Shown here: positions 14,372 to 46,415 of the stretch, piece after piece
Position numbering within the stretch: the stretch's first letter is position 1
Layout: every line of letters begins with the position of its first letter
Source of the DNA: Candidatus Parcubacteria bacterium
GTDB taxonomy: Bacteria > Patescibacteriota > Patescibacteriia > Patescibacteriales > BM507
Length of the DNA: 50,655 nucleotides
Assembly (NCBI GenBank): GCA_002869265.1
Contig: PKTH01000008.1
Span: 1-50,655, forward strand
Direction: 5' to 3'
Made by a program: the position numbers and the translations under genes
The notes under the pieces: model-generated
What the model was told of the DNA's origin: nothing
Databases searched by the model: none
Seen by the model: only the letters and a program-made list of their open reading frames with translations

Positions 14372-17113
14372 TTATTGAAAATTACAAGGAAAGTTAAAAT
14401 TAAAGTTACAGAAGGTAACACAATCTGAACATGTACCAGCCAATAATTCTACGGGGTCACAAAGACCATCTCCACAAGTGTAAGCGCAGGAGCTTGAAAT
14501 AGTATTACAACCATCACCATCCGTTGTGTTACCATCGTCGCAGTCTTCTCCAGGATCAAGAGAACCATCTCCACAAGTATGAAGACAGTTGTTTGAATCT
14601 GTATTACAGCCATCCCCGTCTACTGTGTTTCCGTCATCACACTCTTCTGGGGCTATAACGGTTCCATCACCACAGGTGTAGGCACAAGAACTGGAAAAAG
14701 TATTGCAACCATCTCCATCGGTTGTATTACCATCATCACAATCTTCTGGAGCAGTGACAGTCCCATCACCACAAGCATGCAAACAATTACTATTACAACC
14801 ATCTCCATCTATAGCATTGCCATCATCACAATCTTCCCCCATTTCCACAGCTCCATTACCACAAACTGCCGGCACCGGACAGTCTGCAAAACACAAACCT
14901 GCCTCTCCAGCGCTACAAAAACCATCCCCACAAGTAAACTGACAATTGTTTGAATCTGTATTACAACCATCCCCGTCTACTGTGTTTCCGTCATCACAGT
15001 CCTCCCCTGACTCCACTACTCCGTTTCCACAAACTGGTGGTAGAGTACAGTCACCTGGACAAGATCCAGAGGCCGATTCAGCCGCTGAACAACTCCCATC
15101 ACCACAAACATAAGAACATGAGGCAGTAAGGGTGTTACAACCATCTCCATCAATTGAATTTCCGTCGTCACACTCTTCTCCACTATCTAGGGAGCCATCT
15201 CCACAAGTATGAAGACAATTATTTGAATCAGTATTACAGCCATCCCCATCCACAGAATTTGCATCATCACATTCTTCAGGGGGAGAAACAAACCCATCAC
15301 CACATGTATACAAACACGAAATATTACAACCATCTCCATTTGAGGTATTACCATCATCACAATCCTCTCCTGGGTCTAGAACGCCGTTACCACAACCAGG
15401 AAGTGGAGTGCAATCAGAATCTAGAGCATCAATGTCTCCATCGCAGTCATCATCCAGGGAGTTTGTACAATCCGTTTCTGAAAGATTTCCTGGATTTACG
15501 CCAGCAAACCCAAGACCATCCATACAATCGCATGTTTGCGCTATGGTTAAGGGGCTCAAGGGGTTGGTTAGTGAACAAACTGGATATACAAAAGGATTCA
15601 CAACTATACTAGGCAGAGCTGGTGGACAAGCACAATATCCATCTCCGTCAGCATCACAACCTTCATCAGAAAAACCAGAACAATTATTATCTAAGTTATC
15701 ACATAATTCAGAGGCCCCTGGATTAATTGTAGTGTTCGATTCATCGCAATCACAAGTAGTCGCTCTGGAAGCGGCATTAGTATTATCAGTTTGAGTGCAG
15801 GTCAAAAGAAAAGCACCATCTACAAAAGTTTGACCGCAATCACAATAATTATCGTTATCAGCATCACAACCTTCATCAGGGGTAACACCAGAACAATTAT
15901 CATCAATGCCATTACAAATCTCTGGATTGCCTGGGAATCTAGAAGCATCATTATCGTCACAGTCAGCTGGAACATCACATGTATCCACTCCATCTCCATC
16001 ATTGTCTACGCAAGTTGCAGCACAGGGAGTATCTCCCCCAAAGCAGTCCTGGTCAATCCCATCACCACAAATATCAACAGCTCCCGGTTTTATATTGGGG
16101 TTTGTGTCATCACAATCAGCCAAAGGATTTGCACAAACAGAACCAACTGAGCCGAATGAATCTCCGTCAAAATCCAAGCAAGCTTGAGTGCAACCAGAAA
16201 AGGAAGCAAGGGGTGGTAAAACATTATAGGGGGTTTCAAATGTAGTACAAAGATCGTAGTTTGTTCCATTGCCGATAGAAAAATATCCGTACACTAAACT
16301 ATTTGTTGGCAGATCGGGCAAGGTGTCTGAAAAAGTTTTAATAACATCATTCCAGCAAGTTTTTTCATCAAAACCAACTCCCCCACAAGGACCTAGGTCA
16401 TTTACGGGATCAACGGGAACGCTAGCCCCTATTTCAGAAGAAAATGAAGAAGTCCAACTTGGCCAAACAGAAAGAGTCTTTCCTGGCAAGTATGACCCTG
16501 AAGAAAGAGAGGGATAAGACCCGTGTTCGTTATAGTAATTATCTAGGCGAATATTTAAGCTAGACAAATCTGAAAGTCTTTTTGTATCCCTAATCACTTT
16601 TGCTTTTAAGCTGCCACAAAAATCTCCTATAGAGCAATCATCATCATAGACGCAATATCTAGCTGTATCAAAATGACATAAACCAGTCCCAGAAATATTT
16701 GAATTAAATTTCCAATTTTCTAAAATATTACCAAAAATATCGCTTGTCTCATTATCAGCATTGATATTGTAAGTAATAAGATAAATGTTTGTATAAAGAG
16801 CATCAAGCACTCCATCCCCAGGAGGGGTATCCACTAAATTACTAACATTAACGTAAACTGAGTTTCCGTCTCGAACAGCCTCATATCCATCAACTAGCAT
16901 TGACTGAGGTGACCCAGTGAATTCTTGTTTATTATACCAATCCCTTGCTGATAAATGGTCAAGGTTTGGAAAAACACGAATAGCAATAGCATCCGAACTA
17001 GCAAATCCTACAAGATTATTTGAAAAAAACAATAAAATGACAAATAAAAACAGACCAATAATAACATGGGTTAAACTATTGCTATTTTTGTTTTTTAGTA
17101 GTTTTTTAAACAT
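14372..17113 (-). CDS. Secreted Cys-rich protein: pilin-like segment, about 4 MopE-type and about 8 Myxo-type CxDGxxxxxExCDDGNxxxGDGC repeats
   Basis: Repeated GEDCDDGNTVDGDGCN units; CNGIDDNCSG / CDNLDNNCSG units; signal-anchor-like N-terminus. Confidence 0.9.
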   Translation of the reverse strand: MFKKLLKNKNSNSLTHVIIGLFLFVILLFFSNNLVGFASSDAIAIRVFPNLDHLSARDWYNKQEFTGSPQSMLVDGYEAVRDGNSVYVNVSNLVDTPPGDGVLDALYTNIYLITYNINADNETSDIFGNILENWKFNSNISGTGLCHFDTARYCVYDDDCSIGDFCGSLKAKVIRDTKRLSDLSSLNIRLDNYYNEHGSYPSLSSGSYLPGKTLSVWPSWTSSFSSEIGASVPVDPVNDLGPCGGVGFDEKTCWNDVIKTFSDTLPDLPTNSLVYGYFSIGNGTNYDLCTTFETPYNVLPPLASFSGCTQACLDFDGDSFGSVGSVCANPLADCDDTNPNIKPGAVDICGDGIDQDCFGGDTPCAATCVDNDGDGVDTCDVPADCDDNDASRFPGNPEICNGIDDNCSGVTPDEGCDADNDNYCDCGQTFVDGAFLLTCTQTDNTNAASRATTCDCDESNTTINPGASELCDNLDNNCSGFSDEGCDADGDGYCACPPALPSIVVNPFVYPVCSLTNPLSPLTIAQTCDCMDGLGFAGVNPGNLSETDCTNSLDDDCDGDIDALDSDCTPLPGCGNGVLDPGEDCDDGNTSNGDGCNISCLYTCGDGFVSPPEECDDANSVDGDGCNTDSNNCLHTCGDGSLDSGEECDDGNSIDGDGCNTLTASCSYVCGDGSCSAAESASGSCPGDCTLPPVCGNGVVESGEDCDDGNTVDGDGCNTDSNNCQFTCGDGFCSAGEAGLCFADCPVPAVCGNGAVEMGEDCDDGNAIDGDGCNSNCLHACGDGTVTAPEDCDDGNTTDGDGCNTFSSSCAYTCGDGTVIAPEECDDGNTVDGDGCNTDSNNCLHTCGDGSLDPGEDCDDGNTTDGDGCNTISSSCAYTCGDGLCDPVELLAGTCSDCVTFCNFNFNFPCNFQ
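14440..15400 (-). repeat. DNA-level degenerate tandem repeats encoding Myxo-type Cys-rich units
   Basis: Near-identical segments e.g. around 14568-14641, 14922-14998 and 15190-15270. Confidence 0.85.
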
Positions 17114-17146: not shown

Positions 17147-18739
17147 CTATATCAAACTCTCTCCGCTCATTTCTTCCGGTTTTTCTAGACCTAAAAGCTT
17201 CAATATTGTGGGTGCAACATCTGCCAAGACCCCTTGAGGCGGGACTAGACTCAAATCATTACCTGGAACACTCTGCCAGCCGAATGTTTTTCCGTCAAAA
17301 CTATTACCTATTATTAATAATGGAACAGGGTTGCTAGTGTGCTCTTTAAGCTTAACGCCTGCTTGCATGTCATACATAATATCAGCATTCCCATGGTCTG
17401 CGGTAATGAGCACAACCCCTTCCTTGTCATTAGTCGCTTTAACAATCTTATTCACAAGGACGTCAAGTGTTTCAACCGCCTCAATAGCAGCATCCATGTT
17501 TGCCGTATGCCCCACCATATCTGCATTGGCAAAATTAACAAGTATAAAATCATATTTCTCCTCTGATATAGCACTGAGAATTTTTTCGGTGACTTCAGGA
17601 GCAGACATTTCAGGTTTGGCATCATAGCTAGGAAGAGCAGGTGAAGGGACTAGAACATGATCCTCTCCAGGAAATGCCTCTTCAATACCTCCATTAAAAA
17701 AGTAAGTAACATGGGCATATTTTTCAGTCTCTGCGATCCTTAGCTGTTTTAACCCAGCACTTGAAATAATCTCTCCCAAAGAATTCTTCAAAACCACCGG
17801 TGGGAAAATAACATCAACTGGAAGTCCTTTTTCATATTCAGAAAAAGTAGCAAACTTCAAATTTTTAATTTTCTCTCCTCTATTGAAATTTTTAATTTCT
17901 GGAAGACAAAATGCTTTAGTTATTTGTCTTGCTCTATCTGGTCTATAATTAAAAAATATCACTGCATCGTTTTCCTTTATATTCCCTTTGGGGTCTCCAT
18001 CCTTTGTAACAACGCTTGGAACAAATTCTTCATCAAAAATTTTATTTTTATAGCTTTTACTAATAATTTCCAAAGGATCATTACCTGCATTCCCTTTGCC
18101 CTGAGTCATTGCTAGATAGGCTTTTTCTGTCCTGTCCCAATTATTATTTCTATCCATTGTATAAAATCTACCGGCAACGGTAGCTATCTCACCAACTCCA
18201 TTCTTATCAATAGCCGCCTGGATAGATTTTATATATGATTCTCCACCATTATAAACTGTATCTCTACCATCTAGAATTGCATGAATAAATACTTTTTTAA
18301 TATTATTCTCTGCTGCAAACACTAAAAGAGCAAATAAATGATCAATAGAAGCATGAACTCCTCCGTCAGAACATAGGCCCATCAAATGCAGACTAGAATC
18401 ATTCTTTTTTACATGATCGACTATATCCATAAAGGCCTTCTCCTTATAAAAAGAATGATCGCTAATTGCCTTATTGATTCTAGGCAAAAGCTGATAGACT
18501 ATCCTGCCCATTCCAAGATTGAGGTGCCCAACTTCGCTGTTCCCCTCCTCTCCCCATGGCAGACCAACCGCATCCCCGGACGCTCTGATAGTCATAGATG
18601 GATATCTTGAAATATAGTCATCCATGTTGGGGGTTCTTGCCATGGCTATTGCATTCCCACTGAATGGTTGACCAGCACCATATCCATCCAAAATAATTAA
18701 CACTACTGGTTTTGGAATTTTTTTACTTTCGTCGTTCAT
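17147..18739 (-). CDS. gpmI: 2,3-bisphosphoglycerate-independent phosphoglycerate mutase (copy 2)
   Basis: GNSEVGHLNLGMGR, FANADMVGHTANMDAAIEAVE, ITADHGNAD, HTSNPVP. Confidence 0.93.
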   Translation of the reverse strand: MNDESKKIPKPVVLIILDGYGAGQPFSGNAIAMARTPNMDDYISRYPSMTIRASGDAVGLPWGEEGNSEVGHLNLGMGRIVYQLLPRINKAISDHSFYKEKAFMDIVDHVKKNDSSLHLMGLCSDGGVHASIDHLFALLVFAAENNIKKVFIHAILDGRDTVYNGGESYIKSIQAAIDKNGVGEIATVAGRFYTMDRNNNWDRTEKAYLAMTQGKGNAGNDPLEIISKSYKNKIFDEEFVPSVVTKDGDPKGNIKENDAVIFFNYRPDRARQITKAFCLPEIKNFNRGEKIKNLKFATFSEYEKGLPVDVIFPPVVLKNSLGEIISSAGLKQLRIAETEKYAHVTYFFNGGIEEAFPGEDHVLVPSPALPSYDAKPEMSAPEVTEKILSAISEEKYDFILVNFANADMVGHTANMDAAIEAVETLDVLVNKIVKATNDKEGVVLITADHGNADIMYDMQAGVKLKEHTSNPVPLLIIGNSFDGKTFGWQSVPGNDLSLVPPQGVLADVAPTILKLLGLEKPEEMSGESLI

Positions 18740-20290
18740 TTATTTTTTTGAAATCAATGTCCTCCCAGTCATTAATTTTGGTTTTTTTATTTCAAAAAAG
18801 TCTAAAACTGTCGGAGCCATGTCGCAAAGTGCGCCGCTTCTTTTTAGTTCTACTTTATTGTTTTTGCTAATAAAAATAAAAGGAACTTTATTTGTTGTGT
18901 GCTCTGTATAAATTTCTTTTGTTTTTGGATTTAACATTTTTTCTATATTTCCATGATCGGCTGTTACCATAACCGCTCCACCCTTTTTTAAATATGCAGG
19001 AACAATTCTTTTCAAGCTCCTATCTATAGCTTCACAACACTTTATGCCTGCGTTTAAATCGCCTGTATGACCGACCATGTCGGGCGCAGCAAAATTAACC
19101 ATAGTGAATTCATACTTATTCTTTGCAATGGTTTTTAAAATATGCTTTGTTAGGCCCTCAGAACTCATTGCAGGAGTCTTGTTATACTTCTCAACATGTG
19201 GAGAGGGAATCATTTTCTGATCTTCTCCGTCTACTATGCCAGGATAGCCTCCATTAAAGAAATAAGTCACATGAGCATACTTCTCAGTCTCCGCTAAATA
19301 GAGTTGGCGATGTCCTTCAAGCACCATAGGTAGAGTCTCCTTTAAGTCAACACTAGGGTAGGCTGTAAAAATGTTTCCTAAATCAGGACCAAAATCAGTC
19401 ATCGAAACAAAATGGATGTTTTTTAACTTTCTTTTTAGTTTAAAAGAATTTTCATTTTGTAAATGAAACTTGGACTGTACAAATGTTTTAGCCAGCTGTC
19501 TAGCTCTATCTGACCTTAAATTAAAAAATATAATTCCGTCATTATTAGAAATCCTTGAACCCTTATCATCCCCAACGATACTTGGTTTAATATACTCGTC
19601 TGATTCTCCCCTATTATAGGCCTGAGTAATTGCCTCTTTGGCGTTTTCTGTTTTTATCCCCTCTCCCAAAACTAGCATATTGTATGACTTTTCTGTTCTC
19701 TCCCAATCCTTTTTCCTATCCATCGCATAAAAACGTCCCATTATAGAAACAATTTTTTCGTTTTTCTTTAATTTCTTTTCAAGCTCATGAACAAGATTCA
19801 ATGATGCATACCTAGGAGAATCCCTTCCATCGGTAAAAAGATGTAGATATATTTTCGAGACTTTCTTTTTTCTCGCTAGCTCAAGGAGTGCAAACAAATG
19901 ACCAGGATCACTGTGAGGACTCATTCCATTTGAGATAAGTCCCATCAAGTGAAGACCAGATTTGTTCTTTTTTACATGATTAATAATTTCCAAGAATGCA
20001 GCATTTTTATAAAAAGTACCGTTATCAATTGATTTACTTATTTTTACAACGTCTTGCTCAACTAGTCTCCCCGCTCCAATATTCATGTGCCCAGCCTCAC
20101 TATTACCGATTTGACCGTCTGGAAGGCCGACATGCTTACCGTGAGCAAATATAGAAGTATTTGGAAATTTTTTCAGCAAGCCATCATAGAAAGGTGTCTT
20201 TGCTAAAGAAATAGCATTCCCCTCTTTTTTATCACTTAGACCCCAACCGTCCAAAACTATCAAAATAAGAGGTGTTTTTTTCTTAGGCAT
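18740..20290 (-). CDS. gpmI: 2,3-bisphosphoglycerate-independent phosphoglycerate mutase (copy 1)
   Basis: GNSEAGHMNIGAGR, FAAPDMVGHTGDLNAGIKCCEAID, VTADHGNIE, HTTNKVP. Confidence 0.95.
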   Translation of the reverse strand: MPKKKTPLILIVLDGWGLSDKKEGNAISLAKTPFYDGLLKKFPNTSIFAHGKHVGLPDGQIGNSEAGHMNIGAGRLVEQDVVKISKSIDNGTFYKNAAFLEIINHVKKNKSGLHLMGLISNGMSPHSDPGHLFALLELARKKKVSKIYLHLFTDGRDSPRYASLNLVHELEKKLKKNEKIVSIMGRFYAMDRKKDWERTEKSYNMLVLGEGIKTENAKEAITQAYNRGESDEYIKPSIVGDDKGSRISNNDGIIFFNLRSDRARQLAKTFVQSKFHLQNENSFKLKRKLKNIHFVSMTDFGPDLGNIFTAYPSVDLKETLPMVLEGHRQLYLAETEKYAHVTYFFNGGYPGIVDGEDQKMIPSPHVEKYNKTPAMSSEGLTKHILKTIAKNKYEFTMVNFAAPDMVGHTGDLNAGIKCCEAIDRSLKRIVPAYLKKGGAVMVTADHGNIEKMLNPKTKEIYTEHTTNKVPFIFISKNNKVELKRSGALCDMAPTVLDFFEIKKPKLMTGRTLISKK

Positions 20291-31767: not shown

Positions 31768-32694
31768 TTATTTACTCTCTCTTGCTTTCCTTCTCTTCTC
31801 TGCCTCAGCTAAAGAAAATTCGCAACCACAATAATCTTGCCTATATAATTGAAGCTCTCTAGATAGAGCAGCAGACTTCTTAAAACCATCATTTTTTTTG
31901 AAATCTCTATCCAGAAAACCAAGCTCATATTCTCGGCCAAGTTCTTGTCCAAACTTCATTATTGCCTTAGCGTTTTTATGAGGGCTGGTTGTGAGTGTCG
32001 TAGCAAAATAATGAAAATTATTTTTGTTGGCATATTTTGCCGTATTTTCTAACCTTTCCCTATAGCAAAGCATACATCTAGCACCCCTCTCTGGTTCTTT
32101 CTCGTAACCCCGGACCATCTCTCTCCATTTGTCATGATCATAGTCACCCAAAATTACTTTTAGTCTATACCTCCTAGCCACCTTCTTAATCTCCTCCAGT
32201 CTCTTTTCATACTCTCGTAAAGGGAAAATATTTGGATTATAAAAATACAGAGTAACTTTAAATTCTTTTTTTAATAGTTGACTTACATAAACCCCACAGC
32301 CAATACAACAAACATGCAACAAAAGACTTGGCTTTGGTGATTTATGAATGAAAAATGCATAAAACATTGCTAGGATGGCACCACCCACTCCGGCTAAAAG
32401 ATCTAGTTCGTCTACCGTTCTTCCTGGGACATAGTTCTGTAGGAACTCTAAGGAAAAAGCATACAAAGAGCCAAATAATAAAGACAAAATTGCTGATTTA
32501 AAAAATTCGTCTTTCCTCTGAATGAGTACTCGAAATAACAAAAAAGAAAAAACACCAAACAAGATAAAATGCACCCCTTTATCATAATAAGTCTGTTCGT
32601 GGGTTTCGAACTCTTTCATTGGAAACGTTAACATGACAAAAATTAACAATGACCAAAGAGATAGATATATATATTTCAACTTATCTTTTTTCAT
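31768..32694 (-). CDS. VanZ-like membrane domain fused to QueH (epoxyqueuosine reductase)-like domain
   Basis: N-terminal about 4 TM with DKGVHFILFGVFSFLLFR...SLEFLQNYVPGRTVDELDLLAGVGGAILA; C-terminal LLHVCCIGCGVYV, EYEKRLEEI, RCMLCYRERL, YRQDYCGC. Confidence 0.85.
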   Translation of the reverse strand: MKKDKLKYIYLSLWSLLIFVMLTFPMKEFETHEQTYYDKGVHFILFGVFSFLLFRVLIQRKDEFFKSAILSLLFGSLYAFSLEFLQNYVPGRTVDELDLLAGVGGAILAMFYAFFIHKSPKPSLLLHVCCIGCGVYVSQLLKKEFKVTLYFYNPNIFPLREYEKRLEEIKKVARRYRLKVILGDYDHDKWREMVRGYEKEPERGARCMLCYRERLENTAKYANKNNFHYFATTLTTSPHKNAKAIMKFGQELGREYELGFLDRDFKKNDGFKKSAALSRELQLYRQDYCGCEFSLAEAEKRRKARESK

Positions 32695-33763
32695 TACTTT
32701 TCTTCTCAACCAAACTAAAAGAGAATACTATTAATAACATTAAAAATACTAAAATTGCTAAAGCGTAAAACTTGCCAAGACTTTGTAAAAAAACGGCGCT
32801 CATACCAAAGACAATAGAAAGAATATAAAATATCAATACGGTCTTCCTTTGGCCAATTCCTAGATCATACAGTCTAAAGTGGAGATGCTTTCTGTCGGCA
32901 AAGGCAAAAGGGTTCTTGCCAGAAAAAAATCTTCTTATTATTGTCCAAACTACATCCATTATTGGAACTCCCATAACCAAAAGAGCAATCGCAATCTTCC
33001 CACCAGATATAATAGCCAAAATTCCTAAGAGAAAACCGAGAATGAGAGAACCACCTTCTCCTAAAAATATTTTAGCGGGATGCCAATTAAAAATTAAAAA
33101 ACCGAGGCAGGCAGCAAAAAGAATCAAAGAAGCTACTGCAATGTCTGGTTGATAATATTTTGAACTAAGTGTAAACACAAATATTATAAAAGCGCCAATT
33201 GCTGTTATCCCCGTAACAAGACCATCCATACCATCAAGAAGTTTTGTGGTATACATCATCCCTAAAAGCCATACAGAAATAAAAATATCAGACAAGACTG
33301 TAAAGGAAAAATCTACGCCCATCATTGAGAACAAGGGTATATCCCAAGTGTTAAAATAAAAATAACCACCAAAAGGGTTTGTTATTTTCTCGATCTCAAC
33401 CCCCGCTAAAACAACTATTGCTATAGCCAGTAGAGGAAACAATATTTGTTTTCTCGCTTTAAGATTATGCCTATCGTCAAGATAGCCACCAATCATTAAA
33501 ACAAGTGCTCCAAAAAAAACGCCTAACCAATGGACTAGATTTAAATCACCTACTAACAATTTGTCCTTAAAAATAAACGCTGCAATAAAAAAAGTAGCAA
33601 ATATTCCCAAGCCCCCAAGGAGAGGGATTTCCCCTTTATGAATTTTTCTACCTTTGTCAGCCTTGTCAACAATTCGTAAAAATATTGCCAACTTTTTAAC
33701 AAAAAAAGTAGCAAATATTGACAAAGAGAAAGTTATAAAAAATATTATTATATTAGTCATCAT
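32681..33763 (-). CDS. WecA/MraY-family undecaprenyl-phosphate glycosyl-1-phosphate transferase
   Basis: GYLDDRHNLKARKQI, KLLDGMDGLVTGI, FLGEGGSLILGFLLG, HLHFRLYDLGI; ATG chosen over track GTG at 33769. Confidence 0.92.
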   Translation of the reverse strand: MMTNIIIFFITFSLSIFATFFVKKLAIFLRIVDKADKGRKIHKGEIPLLGGLGIFATFFIAAFIFKDKLLVGDLNLVHWLGVFFGALVLMIGGYLDDRHNLKARKQILFPLLAIAIVVLAGVEIEKITNPFGGYFYFNTWDIPLFSMMGVDFSFTVLSDIFISVWLLGMMYTTKLLDGMDGLVTGITAIGAFIIFVFTLSSKYYQPDIAVASLILFAACLGFLIFNWHPAKIFLGEGGSLILGFLLGILAIISGGKIAIALLVMGVPIMDVVWTIIRRFFSGKNPFAFADRKHLHFRLYDLGIGQRKTVLIFYILSIVFGMSAVFLQSLGKFYALAILVFLMLLIVFSFSLVEKKSNEKR

Positions 33764-43998: not shown

Positions 43999-44733
43999 TT
44001 AATAAATATTTACTTCTGTCCCCACTTCCGTGAGATTATATATTTTTTCAGCAGCCTCAGTACCAACTCTTACACATCCATGTGAAGCTGGAGCCCCAAG
44101 ATGGTCCTCTCCTTCTCTATACCCACTGGGCCAAATAGGCAATTCATGTATACCATATCTTCCGTCGGGTGTTATTGCCATCCAATACGGCATCCACAAT
44201 CCATAACTAGACCAAGCTTTGGGATGTTTATTCTGAATACTAAATTTCCCTCTAGGGGTTGTGTCAAACAAACCACTTGATACCGGATAGTCATACATCA
44301 TTACTCCTCCCAAAAAATAAAATAGTTTCTGAGAATAGAGGCTTATATCAATTCTTTTTTGAAGTTTCGCTCCGCTATTTTGCAGGGGGTCAAAACCACC
44401 ATAAACCTCTTGCCCATCATCATAACCATCTCCATCACTATCCTTGTTTTTTATTTTAGTCTTAAATTTCAATTCCAAACTATCAACTAGGCCATCCTGA
44501 TCAAAATCACTTTCAGCTAGCTTTACTGGTCTCGCTTCTAGGGGCGAATATCCTGTGTTGAGCTCTAGCCAGTCACTATAACCGTCACCATCCGTGTCAC
44601 CGCTATTAGGATTTGTTTCATAAACTTCTATCTCATCTCTATCCGGCACCCCATCCATATCTGAGTCAAGTAAGCCATTAGCAAAGACAAGTTCAGGCAA
44701 AAAGATAAAGAATAATAAAAATAGAGTTCTCAT
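43999..44733 (-). CDS. L,D-transpeptidase (YkuD) with N-terminal TSP3-type calcium-binding repeats
   Basis: DSDMDGVPDRDE, DTDGDGYSDWLE, DFDQDGLVDSLE, DSDGDGYDDGQE; catalytic GIHELP...SHGCVRV. Confidence 0.92.
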   Translation of the reverse strand: MRTLFLLFFIFLPELVFANGLLDSDMDGVPDRDEIEVYETNPNSGDTDGDGYSDWLELNTGYSPLEARPVKLAESDFDQDGLVDSLELKFKTKIKNKDSDGDGYDDGQEVYGGFDPLQNSGAKLQKRIDISLYSQKLFYFLGGVMMYDYPVSSGLFDTTPRGKFSIQNKHPKAWSSYGLWMPYWMAITPDGRYGIHELPIWPSGYREGEDHLGAPASHGCVRVGTEAAEKIYNLTEVGTEVNIY

Positions 44734-45128
44734 TATAATAATTCACTTAATTTAAAGTTCACCAAAGTGTCATTAACTGCCTTTTGCAAACGAGACAAAA
44801 CTTTCAAGGCTCCACAAGAACCATTATCACAGCTAACAGCCCCAGTCTCATCTACACACCTGAAGTATGAAATACTCCCCTCGAGCGTTTTTACAATATC
44901 AAGAATGCTTATATCCTCAGGCTTTCTACTTAAGGTATAACCTCCGTTTACTCCTCTTTCAGATGTAACTAGACCAGCTTTTTTTAGCTTTGAAAAGAGC
45001 CTTTCAAGATAGCCAAGCGAGATTTTCTCTTCTTCGGCAATTTTCGCTAAAGACAGCGAGTCTCCACTATTTTTAGCTAAGCTAATCATAGCTCTTATTC
45101 CATATGTAGATTTGGTAGAAAATTTCAT
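44733..45128 (-). CDS. Rrf2-family regulator, IscR-like
   Basis: MKFSTKSTYGIRAMISLAKN...LERLFSKLKKAGLVTSERGVNGGYTLSR; three Cys in FRCVDETGAVSCDNGSCGAL. Confidence 0.93.
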   Translation of the reverse strand: MKFSTKSTYGIRAMISLAKNSGDSLSLAKIAEEEKISLGYLERLFSKLKKAGLVTSERGVNGGYTLSRKPEDISILDIVKTLEGSISYFRCVDETGAVSCDNGSCGALKVLSRLQKAVNDTLVNFKLSELL

Positions 45129-45200
45129 TAAGACAATATAATTCCTACCAGCGTGGTAGGTGTTTATACAATATCATTTTATCTATTTTTGTCAAGAAAA

Positions 45201-45226
45201 AAGACCGGGATTTGTTTCCCGGTCTT
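45201..45226 (-). terminator. Rho-independent terminator
   Basis: Minus: AAGACCGGGA-AACAAA-TCCCGGTCTTTTTTC. Confidence 0.93.
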
Positions 45227-45248: not shown

Positions 45249-45491
45249 TTACTCACTCACGATTCCCAATTTTTTCTCCAATTTTTCAAACCTCTTACTG
45301 TTCGAAATTGCAGTTAATGTATAAACAATAACCAATAATGCCACCATCACTATCAAAAATGTTATCTGAATTTGCAGAATGTTAATTTCTGAATCAGTGA
45401 AATGAAAAAGAACTGCTAAGAAAATAGTCAAATAAGATATCACCAAGGTCGCTCGATGTAACAAGCCAATCTTTTTCTTAACAACATTCAT
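45249..45491 (-). CDS. Orphan small two-TM membrane protein
   Basis: MNVVKKKIGLLHRATLVISYLTIFLAVLF...; SD AGAAAGGAGATTTCA-ATG; track start at 45515 (TTG) lies upstream of the SD. Confidence 0.8.
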   Translation of the reverse strand: MNVVKKKIGLLHRATLVISYLTIFLAVLFHFTDSEINILQIQITFLIVMVALLVIVYTLTAISNSKRFEKLEKKLGIVSE

Positions 45492-45528
45492 TGAAATCTC
45501 CTTTCTAACAGTCAATCAGTTTATCCTT

Positions 45529-45840
45529 TTAAATCCACTGGTTTTTTTCTTTAAAACACTCAGTACAAGACCTTCTATCCATATTGTGCTTGCATTTTGG
45601 CACTGGGTTGCATACCATGCAAAGATTTGGATTTCCCCCATGAGAGCAAGGTTCTTGAGCTCTACCCTTAGCTTTGCACCTATAGCAAAAAACCGGATCT
45701 GATCCATGTTCACAGCGACCAGCTCTATCATCTTGGCAAGTTCTGCATCCCCTTCTATCTTTTTGATGATCGCAGCGATATCTTCCCTCACCTAAACAAT
45801 ACAGGCAAGGACTTCCTCCTCCAGTGTGTGTACATCTCAT
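45529..45840 (-). CDS. Orphan Cys/His-rich protein with five CxHx6CxxC putative zinc-binding motifs
   Basis: CTHTGGGSPCLYC, CDHQKDRRGCRTC, CEHGSDPVFCYRC, CSHGGNPNLCMVC, CKHNMDRRSCTEC; SD GGAGGTG upstream of ATG. Confidence 0.9.
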   Translation of the reverse strand: MRCTHTGGGSPCLYCLGEGRYRCDHQKDRRGCRTCQDDRAGRCEHGSDPVFCYRCKAKGRAQEPCSHGGNPNLCMVCNPVPKCKHNMDRRSCTECFKEKNQWI

Positions 45841-45870
45841 AAGAACACCTCCATTTAAGTAAATTTTGAA

Positions 45871-45903
45871 AAATAGCCGTCGGAGTATTTCGACGGCTAT
45901 TTA
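45871..45903 (-). terminator. Rho-independent terminator between mini-genes
   Basis: aaatagccgtcg-gagtattt-cgacggctattt. Confidence 0.85.
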
Positions 45904-45911
45904 TTTAACCT

Positions 45912-46322
45912 CTACAAACCCAAATATGTGACGACCCCGCTTCCCCGCGGGAGCTCTTCGAGGTCATTAGCCGACTTACCAAAAGTAAGATATGGGCCAT
46001 CCATATGCACATTCTCATATTCTCTTATCAAGGCAAATGCCTCATCTGCACTTTCTGCATTAGCAACTGCCTCCCCGCCAGGCCCACAATCAAGCTTAAA
46101 TGTTTTCATTTTTGTTATCCTTATAAAGAAGTCCATTCTAAAAAGATAAAACGACAACAAGCAAACTCCCGTCATAAAAAGTAGCCACTGATTTTCCTGA
46201 ATACGGTAATACATTTCTGGATTTTCACCAAAGCAGAGCTTCCATGAAAATAAACCAAGACATAGCCAGGCAAAGAATAAAACCATCACTTCATAAGTTT
46301 TTTCTAAATAATAGAATTTCAT
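45912..46322 (-). CDS. Orphan membrane protein (2 TM) with small cytosolic C-terminal domain
   Basis: SD GGGGAGGATAGAA-ATG; TM segments VMVLFFAWLCLGLFSW and WLLFMTGVCLLSFYLF. Confidence 0.75.
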   Translation of the reverse strand: MKFYYLEKTYEVMVLFFAWLCLGLFSWKLCFGENPEMYYRIQENQWLLFMTGVCLLSFYLFRMDFFIRITKMKTFKLDCGPGGEAVANAESADEAFALIREYENVHMDGPYLTFGKSANDLEELPRGSGVVTYLGL

Positions 46323-46386
46323 TTCTATCCTCCCCTTTCTGTTTGGATGTTAAAATATTCACTAAAAGTAAAAAGAACAGTTTTTT

Positions 46387-46415
46387 ACTTTATCACTTTT
46401 TTCATATTTTGTCAA
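46387..46415 (-). promoter_or_regulatory. Promoter for mini-gene cluster
   Basis: Minus: TTGACA - 17 nt - TAAAGT. Confidence 0.8.

Follow-up and report, generated by a model that had tools for sequence, protein, structure and literature searches.

The minus strand of a 50,655-nucleotide stretch of Candidatus Parcubacteria DNA (the window, to which all positions refer) encodes P0001, a 103-aa protein built almost entirely of five C-x-H-x6-C-x2-C units. It is a real, constrained and species-specific array protein whose metal is presumably zinc, and its standing as a regular, probably zinc-binding array is well supported. Its role is more tentative. The reading preferred here, with a probability of about 0.42, is that P0001 is an intracellular five-zinc CCHC array that serves as a nucleic-acid-binding module or adaptor and is encoded in a gained-or-lost genomic pocket.

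Five units in one reading frame

The first-pass annotation had placed five exact motifs, with 20 potential ligands in 103 aa and linkers of 5-9 aa, at 45529-45840. All five motifs and all 20 ligands are present, and the linkers between units 1 to 5 are exactly 7, 7, 9 and 5 aa. The ORF at that location is real; its strand, missing from the annotation, is minus, and the plus strand over the same interval is interrupted by stop codons.

45529..45840, minus strand: array gene P0001, 103 aa, ATG start, five C-x-H-x6-C-x2-C units (ORF 45840->45529)
45796..45834, minus strand: unit 1, CTHTGGGSPCLYC (motif match)
45736..45774, minus strand: unit 2, CDHQKDRRGCRTC (motif match)
45676..45714, minus strand: unit 3, CEHGSDPVFCYRC (motif match)
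45610..45648, minus strand: unit 4, CSHGGNPNLCMVC (motif match)
45556..45594, minus strand: unit 5, CKHNMDRRSCTEC (motif match)
45846..45852 (complement), minus strand: Shine-Dalgarno GGAGGTG of the array gene, strong, before the ATG (from the sequence)

By residue count, the 15 Cys and 5 His of P0001 are all motif ligands (20/20), with no extras. Cys accounts for 14.6% of the protein, the net charge is basic (+8), the ORF stops 8 aa past the last unit, and a signal peptide is absent by eye. At the DNA level, the motif pattern occurs six times on the two strands of the whole window, five of them in the array ORF within 280 bp, against an expectation from dinucleotide shuffling of 0.04 per 50-kb window (sd 0.20).

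A second ORF of 91 aa (45516-45791, minus strand, GTG start) overlaps the array in another frame and might be the true coding sequence, with the motifs as a by-product. Its frame is open, and a cruder codon score that includes amino-acid composition puts it ahead of the array frame, as is expected where a protein is Cys-rich. The synonymous codon score, however, is +4.2 bits for the array frame and -5.7 bits for the overlapping ORF, which also has no evident Shine-Dalgarno sequence, and chance is virtually excluded as the source of five exact motifs. The best evidence for the frame is the internal constraint pattern among the five repeats: all 80 comparisons at the first and second positions of the ligand codons show identity (100%), against 45% at the third positions of these codons and 27-40% at non-ligand codon positions. 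The units likely arose by duplication; if they did, the ligands have been kept while all else is saturated, which means that selection acts on the array protein frame. The pattern is compatible with the array frame alone and leaves the 91-aa reading close to refuted, with hardly any probability. The earlier preference for the array frame, based on the Shine-Dalgarno sequence and motif regularity, is borne out by the strong GGAGGTG, the codon scores and the repeat constraint.

The pocket between rrf2 and secE

The array gene is located in a 1.2-kb pocket of three genes (136 aa, array, 80 aa) between rrf2, of the isc operon, and secE. To the left, on the minus strand, are rrf2 (an Fe-S regulator) and genes for an L,D-transpeptidase and IscU-like, NifU-like and IscS-like proteins; to the right, on the plus strand, is secE-nusG-rplK-rplA (rp and sec names by reading).

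45249..45491, minus strand: downstream gene, 80 aa, two hydrophobic stretches (by eye), own Shine-Dalgarno sequence, no known family
45912..46322, minus strand: upstream gene, 136 aa, two hydrophobic stretches and a soluble C-terminal part (by eye), no known family
45871..45902, minus strand: perfect 12-bp hairpin with 8-nt loop, then TTTTT, between the 136-aa gene and the array (z -3.6)
46387..46415, minus strand: promoter-like site TTGACA-17-TAAAGT, TG before the -10, upstream of the 136-aa gene
45201..45226, minus strand: intrinsic-terminator-like hairpin, end of the pocket before rrf2

The array stop codon and the ATG of the 80-aa gene are separated by 37 nt, each gene has its own Shine-Dalgarno sequence, and the two are likely co-transcribed. 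The hairpin between the 136-aa gene and the array may be a terminator or an attenuator. The promoter-like site is a consensus match only, and such sites are no more frequent in the region than in shuffled sequence. The 136-aa and 80-aa genes match no Pfam family, and neither has a convincing relative among the viral contigs or within the order, where the best match has E 1e-3 and most have broken frames; no Rfam family was matched.

The sister species G001, whose rrf2 is 87% identical, lacks the pocket and all three of its genes, and its rrf2-secE gap is shorter than 200 bp. Since its flanks align up to both pocket ends, about 1.2 kb with three genes is extra in the array species. The pocket was either gained there or lost from the sister species, and both orders stand, because rrf2 is not adjacent to secE in either of two further relatives (2/2). 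A direct repeat of 34 columns (45163-45195 and 46382-46415) flanks the pocket but makes a weak candidate for an insertion scar: it is AT-rich and promoter-like, and 9 of 2000 shuffles reach its local score, as do 2 of 480 other segments of the window. The pocket is an example of accessory ORFan pockets arising beside housekeeping operons in reduced genomes.

Several neighbouring and more distant features of the window were also recorded. The L,D-transpeptidase (YkuD; 43999-45128, minus strand), a cell-wall enzyme, carries TSP3-type calcium repeats and lies inside the isc operon directly after rrf2, a pairing present also in G001, G004 and G019. A palindrome in the rrf2 promoter region, CCTACCAGCGTGGTAGG (45144-45160), is a probable Rrf2 operator; a similar, weaker palindrome, CCTACTAGCTAAGTAGG, occupies the equivalent rrf2 position in the sister species. 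Elsewhere on the minus strand are a VanZ-like membrane domain fused to epoxyqueuosine reductase QueH (31768-32709), a secreted-looking protein of 913 aa that combines seven Cys-rich DUF4215 repeats with three metal-binding motifs of the MopE type (14372-17113), and two different cofactor-independent phosphoglycerate mutases in tandem (17147-20290), in a genome of 1.27 Mb.

Relatives and recurrence of the motif

P0001 has no match in Pfam, NCBIfam, PHROGs, PADLOC or the PDB, in keeping with its first description as uncharacterised, and a protein search of the other 110 genomes in the order was likewise negative. A profile built from 19 arrays, used at a cut-off of E<=1e-4, returns P0001 as the sole match across the 111 genomes of the order, 384 sampled from the class and 384 sampled from the phylum; these sets overlap and hold fewer distinct genomes than their sum. 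Other matches in the order have E 3e-4 or worse. Those in G100 and G019 (E 3e-4 to 7e-3) were rejected, the two loci read being DnaJ-like CxxCxGxG or similar cysteine proteins and not arrays. A small DnaJ-like CxxCxGxG protein of G100 (L073), a related reduced genome, has a GvpN-like ATPase and an Hsp20-like protein as neighbours (names by reading), which may mark a gas-vesicle-like cluster.

Within the phylum sample the two-unit DNA pattern has one further match, which falls in a Cys frame that is short and of low complexity. Close-homolog scans with P0001 of genome contigs, viral contigs, phages and plasmids found no homolog; the single plasmid match (Streptomyces, E 0.03) overlaps an annotated gene that shows no array in its own frame, and is therefore taken as chance. 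A viral scan with 7-aa linkers yielded low-complexity or non-coding matches only. Literature searches returned nothing relevant on the motif string (in a small set of spellings), the array consensus or metallothioneins in Patescibacteria. The first-pass annotation had held that missing homologs together with frame-neutral substitution would count against the array: homologs are indeed absent in the genomes searched, but substitution among the repeats is constrained in a frame-specific way.

The motif itself is already recurrent, with the same spacing in viral arrays, and the domain-free five-unit form is a variant. Scans of viral contigs for two consecutive units recovered 33 and 16 stretches; the corresponding scan of genome contigs, which demanded TGT-GAN-CAY in the first unit and was not exhaustive, recovered 15. 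Many of these matches prove to be true arrays, with 2 to 24 units. The viral-type consensus is C-E-H-[GN]-[RK]-x-[RK]-x-x-C-[KR]-[ED]-C-GGSxI, with linkers of 5 aa in 166 of 197 cases, and most arrays run into another domain at the C-terminus. That domain is endonuclease VII (PF02945) in L016 and L029 and an HNH or other phage endonuclease in L013 (phrog_3322, 4.8e-31), L018 and L022; further arrays have tails resembling HNH or PD-(D/E)xK by eye, and L042, L043 and L031 are array-only pieces in viral contigs. The nuclease-linked arrays are mostly basic (net charge +3 to +15), and no Pfam model matched the array part of the nuclease-fused proteins. The motif recurs in viruses before several nuclease types, yet has no Pfam, NCBIfam or PDB match here.

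Several genome-contig matches appear to be contaminants of the MAGs, of algal or giant-virus origin. L057, from an Oscillibacter MAG, is a secreted SLH-domain protein of 740 aa with a signal peptide (by eye), repeats of the form CxHGNDPxTCxxC and an acidic array (net charge -8). The array ORF of L015 continues into an apparent IS200-type (TnpA-like) transposase, whereas in L024 an endonuclease-like tail follows the same array; by reading, L015 would have an insertion within a viral array gene.

The resemblance of P0001 to these arrays was assessed with its 20 Cys/His ligands fixed and all other residues shuffled 1000 times. Its score against a profile of the non-SLH arrays, mostly nuclease arrays, is reached by 318 of the 1000 shuffles. 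Among 18 single arrays only L057 stands out (1/1000), a match that is suggestive only, being the best of 18 arrays tried.

Proposed role and known systems

AlphaFold with an alignment gives a pLDDT of 65 (best part 71-81, medium confidence) and a pTM of 0.30 for a model without metal, and from the single sequence an unusable pLDDT of 40. The alignment-based model has a short helix starting at the C-x2-C of some units, a placement that would fit a mini treble-clef-like site. No PDB entry matched P0001 reliably, either by sequence or by fold (Foldseek on the AlphaFold model).

Each 13-residue unit would bind one zinc ion (CCHC), with two ligands supplied by a turn and two by the start of a short helix, so that the soluble 103-aa protein would consist of five zinc beads on short polar linkers and no other domain. 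The array most likely serves in the cytoplasm as a module or adaptor for binding nucleic acid, a role probably shared by the motif where it precedes phage and giant-virus endonucleases, and it would have arrived with the two small probable membrane-protein genes in the rrf2-secE pocket unless the sister species lost them. Zinc as the metal, one ion per unit and nucleic acid as the target are presumed, the last because the protein is basic and the motif is associated with nucleases elsewhere. Of the candidate functions, nucleic-acid binding ranks first in likelihood, ahead of protein scaffolding and then metal buffering. Counting against nucleic acid, the best array-level match is a secreted SLH protein, and P0001 has no nuclease domain or neighbour; nucleic-acid binding by the viral arrays is itself presumed, from their fusion to nucleases.

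The alternatives differ mainly in what the array would bind and where it came from. A protein-protein scaffold, whose partner might be one of the two probable membrane proteins (80 aa or 136 aa) at its cytoplasmic end, is possible but somewhat unlikely. It would suit the tight order with the 80-aa gene, the joint absence of the three genes from the sister species and the top non-ligand similarity to a surface protein that is not nucleic-acid-related, but the trio is not conserved elsewhere to indicate a functional link, the 136-aa gene and the array have a hairpin between them, and the charge of +8 points away from a scaffold. The same neighbours enter a decidedly unlikely reading in which an independently evolved array-only CCHC zinc protein and two small membrane proteins work together as an accessory system of three genes that might anchor nucleic acid at the membrane.

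A metallothionein-like buffer, whose 20 thiol and imidazole ligands would store zinc or scavenge toxic metals, is unlikely. Small size, solubility, a single domain, high Cys content and the Fe-S cluster genes adjoining the pocket are all compatible with buffering, but metallothioneins share their ligands in clusters, whereas those of P0001 fall into five separate and equally spaced sites of four ligands each, with neither CxC clusters nor any spare Cys; metal-resistance neighbours were not found, and Pfam metallothionein models fail to match it. Descent from a viral or phage array endonuclease, as a targeting module that lost its nuclease and now has no settled function or acts as a decoy, is very doubtful. 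The identical motif scaffold, the array-only pieces in viral contigs and the patchy, single-species distribution would fit such an origin, but the linker lengths depart from the viral 5 aa, non-ligand similarity is at background, viral genes are absent from the surroundings, and array codon use is native. Whatever its role, a domain-free form with five units in 103 aa is about the smallest natural object in which the zinc stoichiometry, fold and ligand of the motif could be measured.

Bacterial metallothioneins of the SmtA/BmtA type are, like P0001, small and rich in Cys and His, but have clustered CxC ligands in place of its separated sites. The retroviral zinc knuckle is CX2CX4HX4C, a spacing that P0001 does not share. 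The first-pass label of a bacterial zinc-knuckle array is sound as to a regular, probably zinc-binding array, but not as to the retroviral order or the novelty of the motif. The EsV-1-7 repeat proteins of brown algae and their viruses likewise have tandem Cys/His repeats, with a different spacing of C-x4-C-x16-C-x2-H-x12. EsV-1-7 repeats are reported from viruses as well as cells (PMC12993054, among other papers).

The SLH protein L057 has the same spacing as P0001, HGxDP-like units and 6-aa linkers, and offers the best non-ligand similarity, but it is large, secreted, acidic and anchored by SLH domains, whereas P0001 is small, basic and without a signal peptide. The viral array endonucleases share with P0001 the tandem units, an identical ligand spacing and, for the most part, a basic charge. 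They carry a C-terminal catalytic domain, whereas P0001 has no Pfam or PHROG domain; their linkers are nearly always 5-aa GGSxI, whereas the typical GGSxI linkers are missing from its 7/7/9/5 series; and their K/R-rich unit consensus is not followed, its profile score being no better than that of the ligand-fixed shuffles. Units 2 and 5 do carry the viral-type R at position 7. The likeness, judged from sequence, may reflect common descent or convergence on a simple scaffold, and convergence is quite possible.
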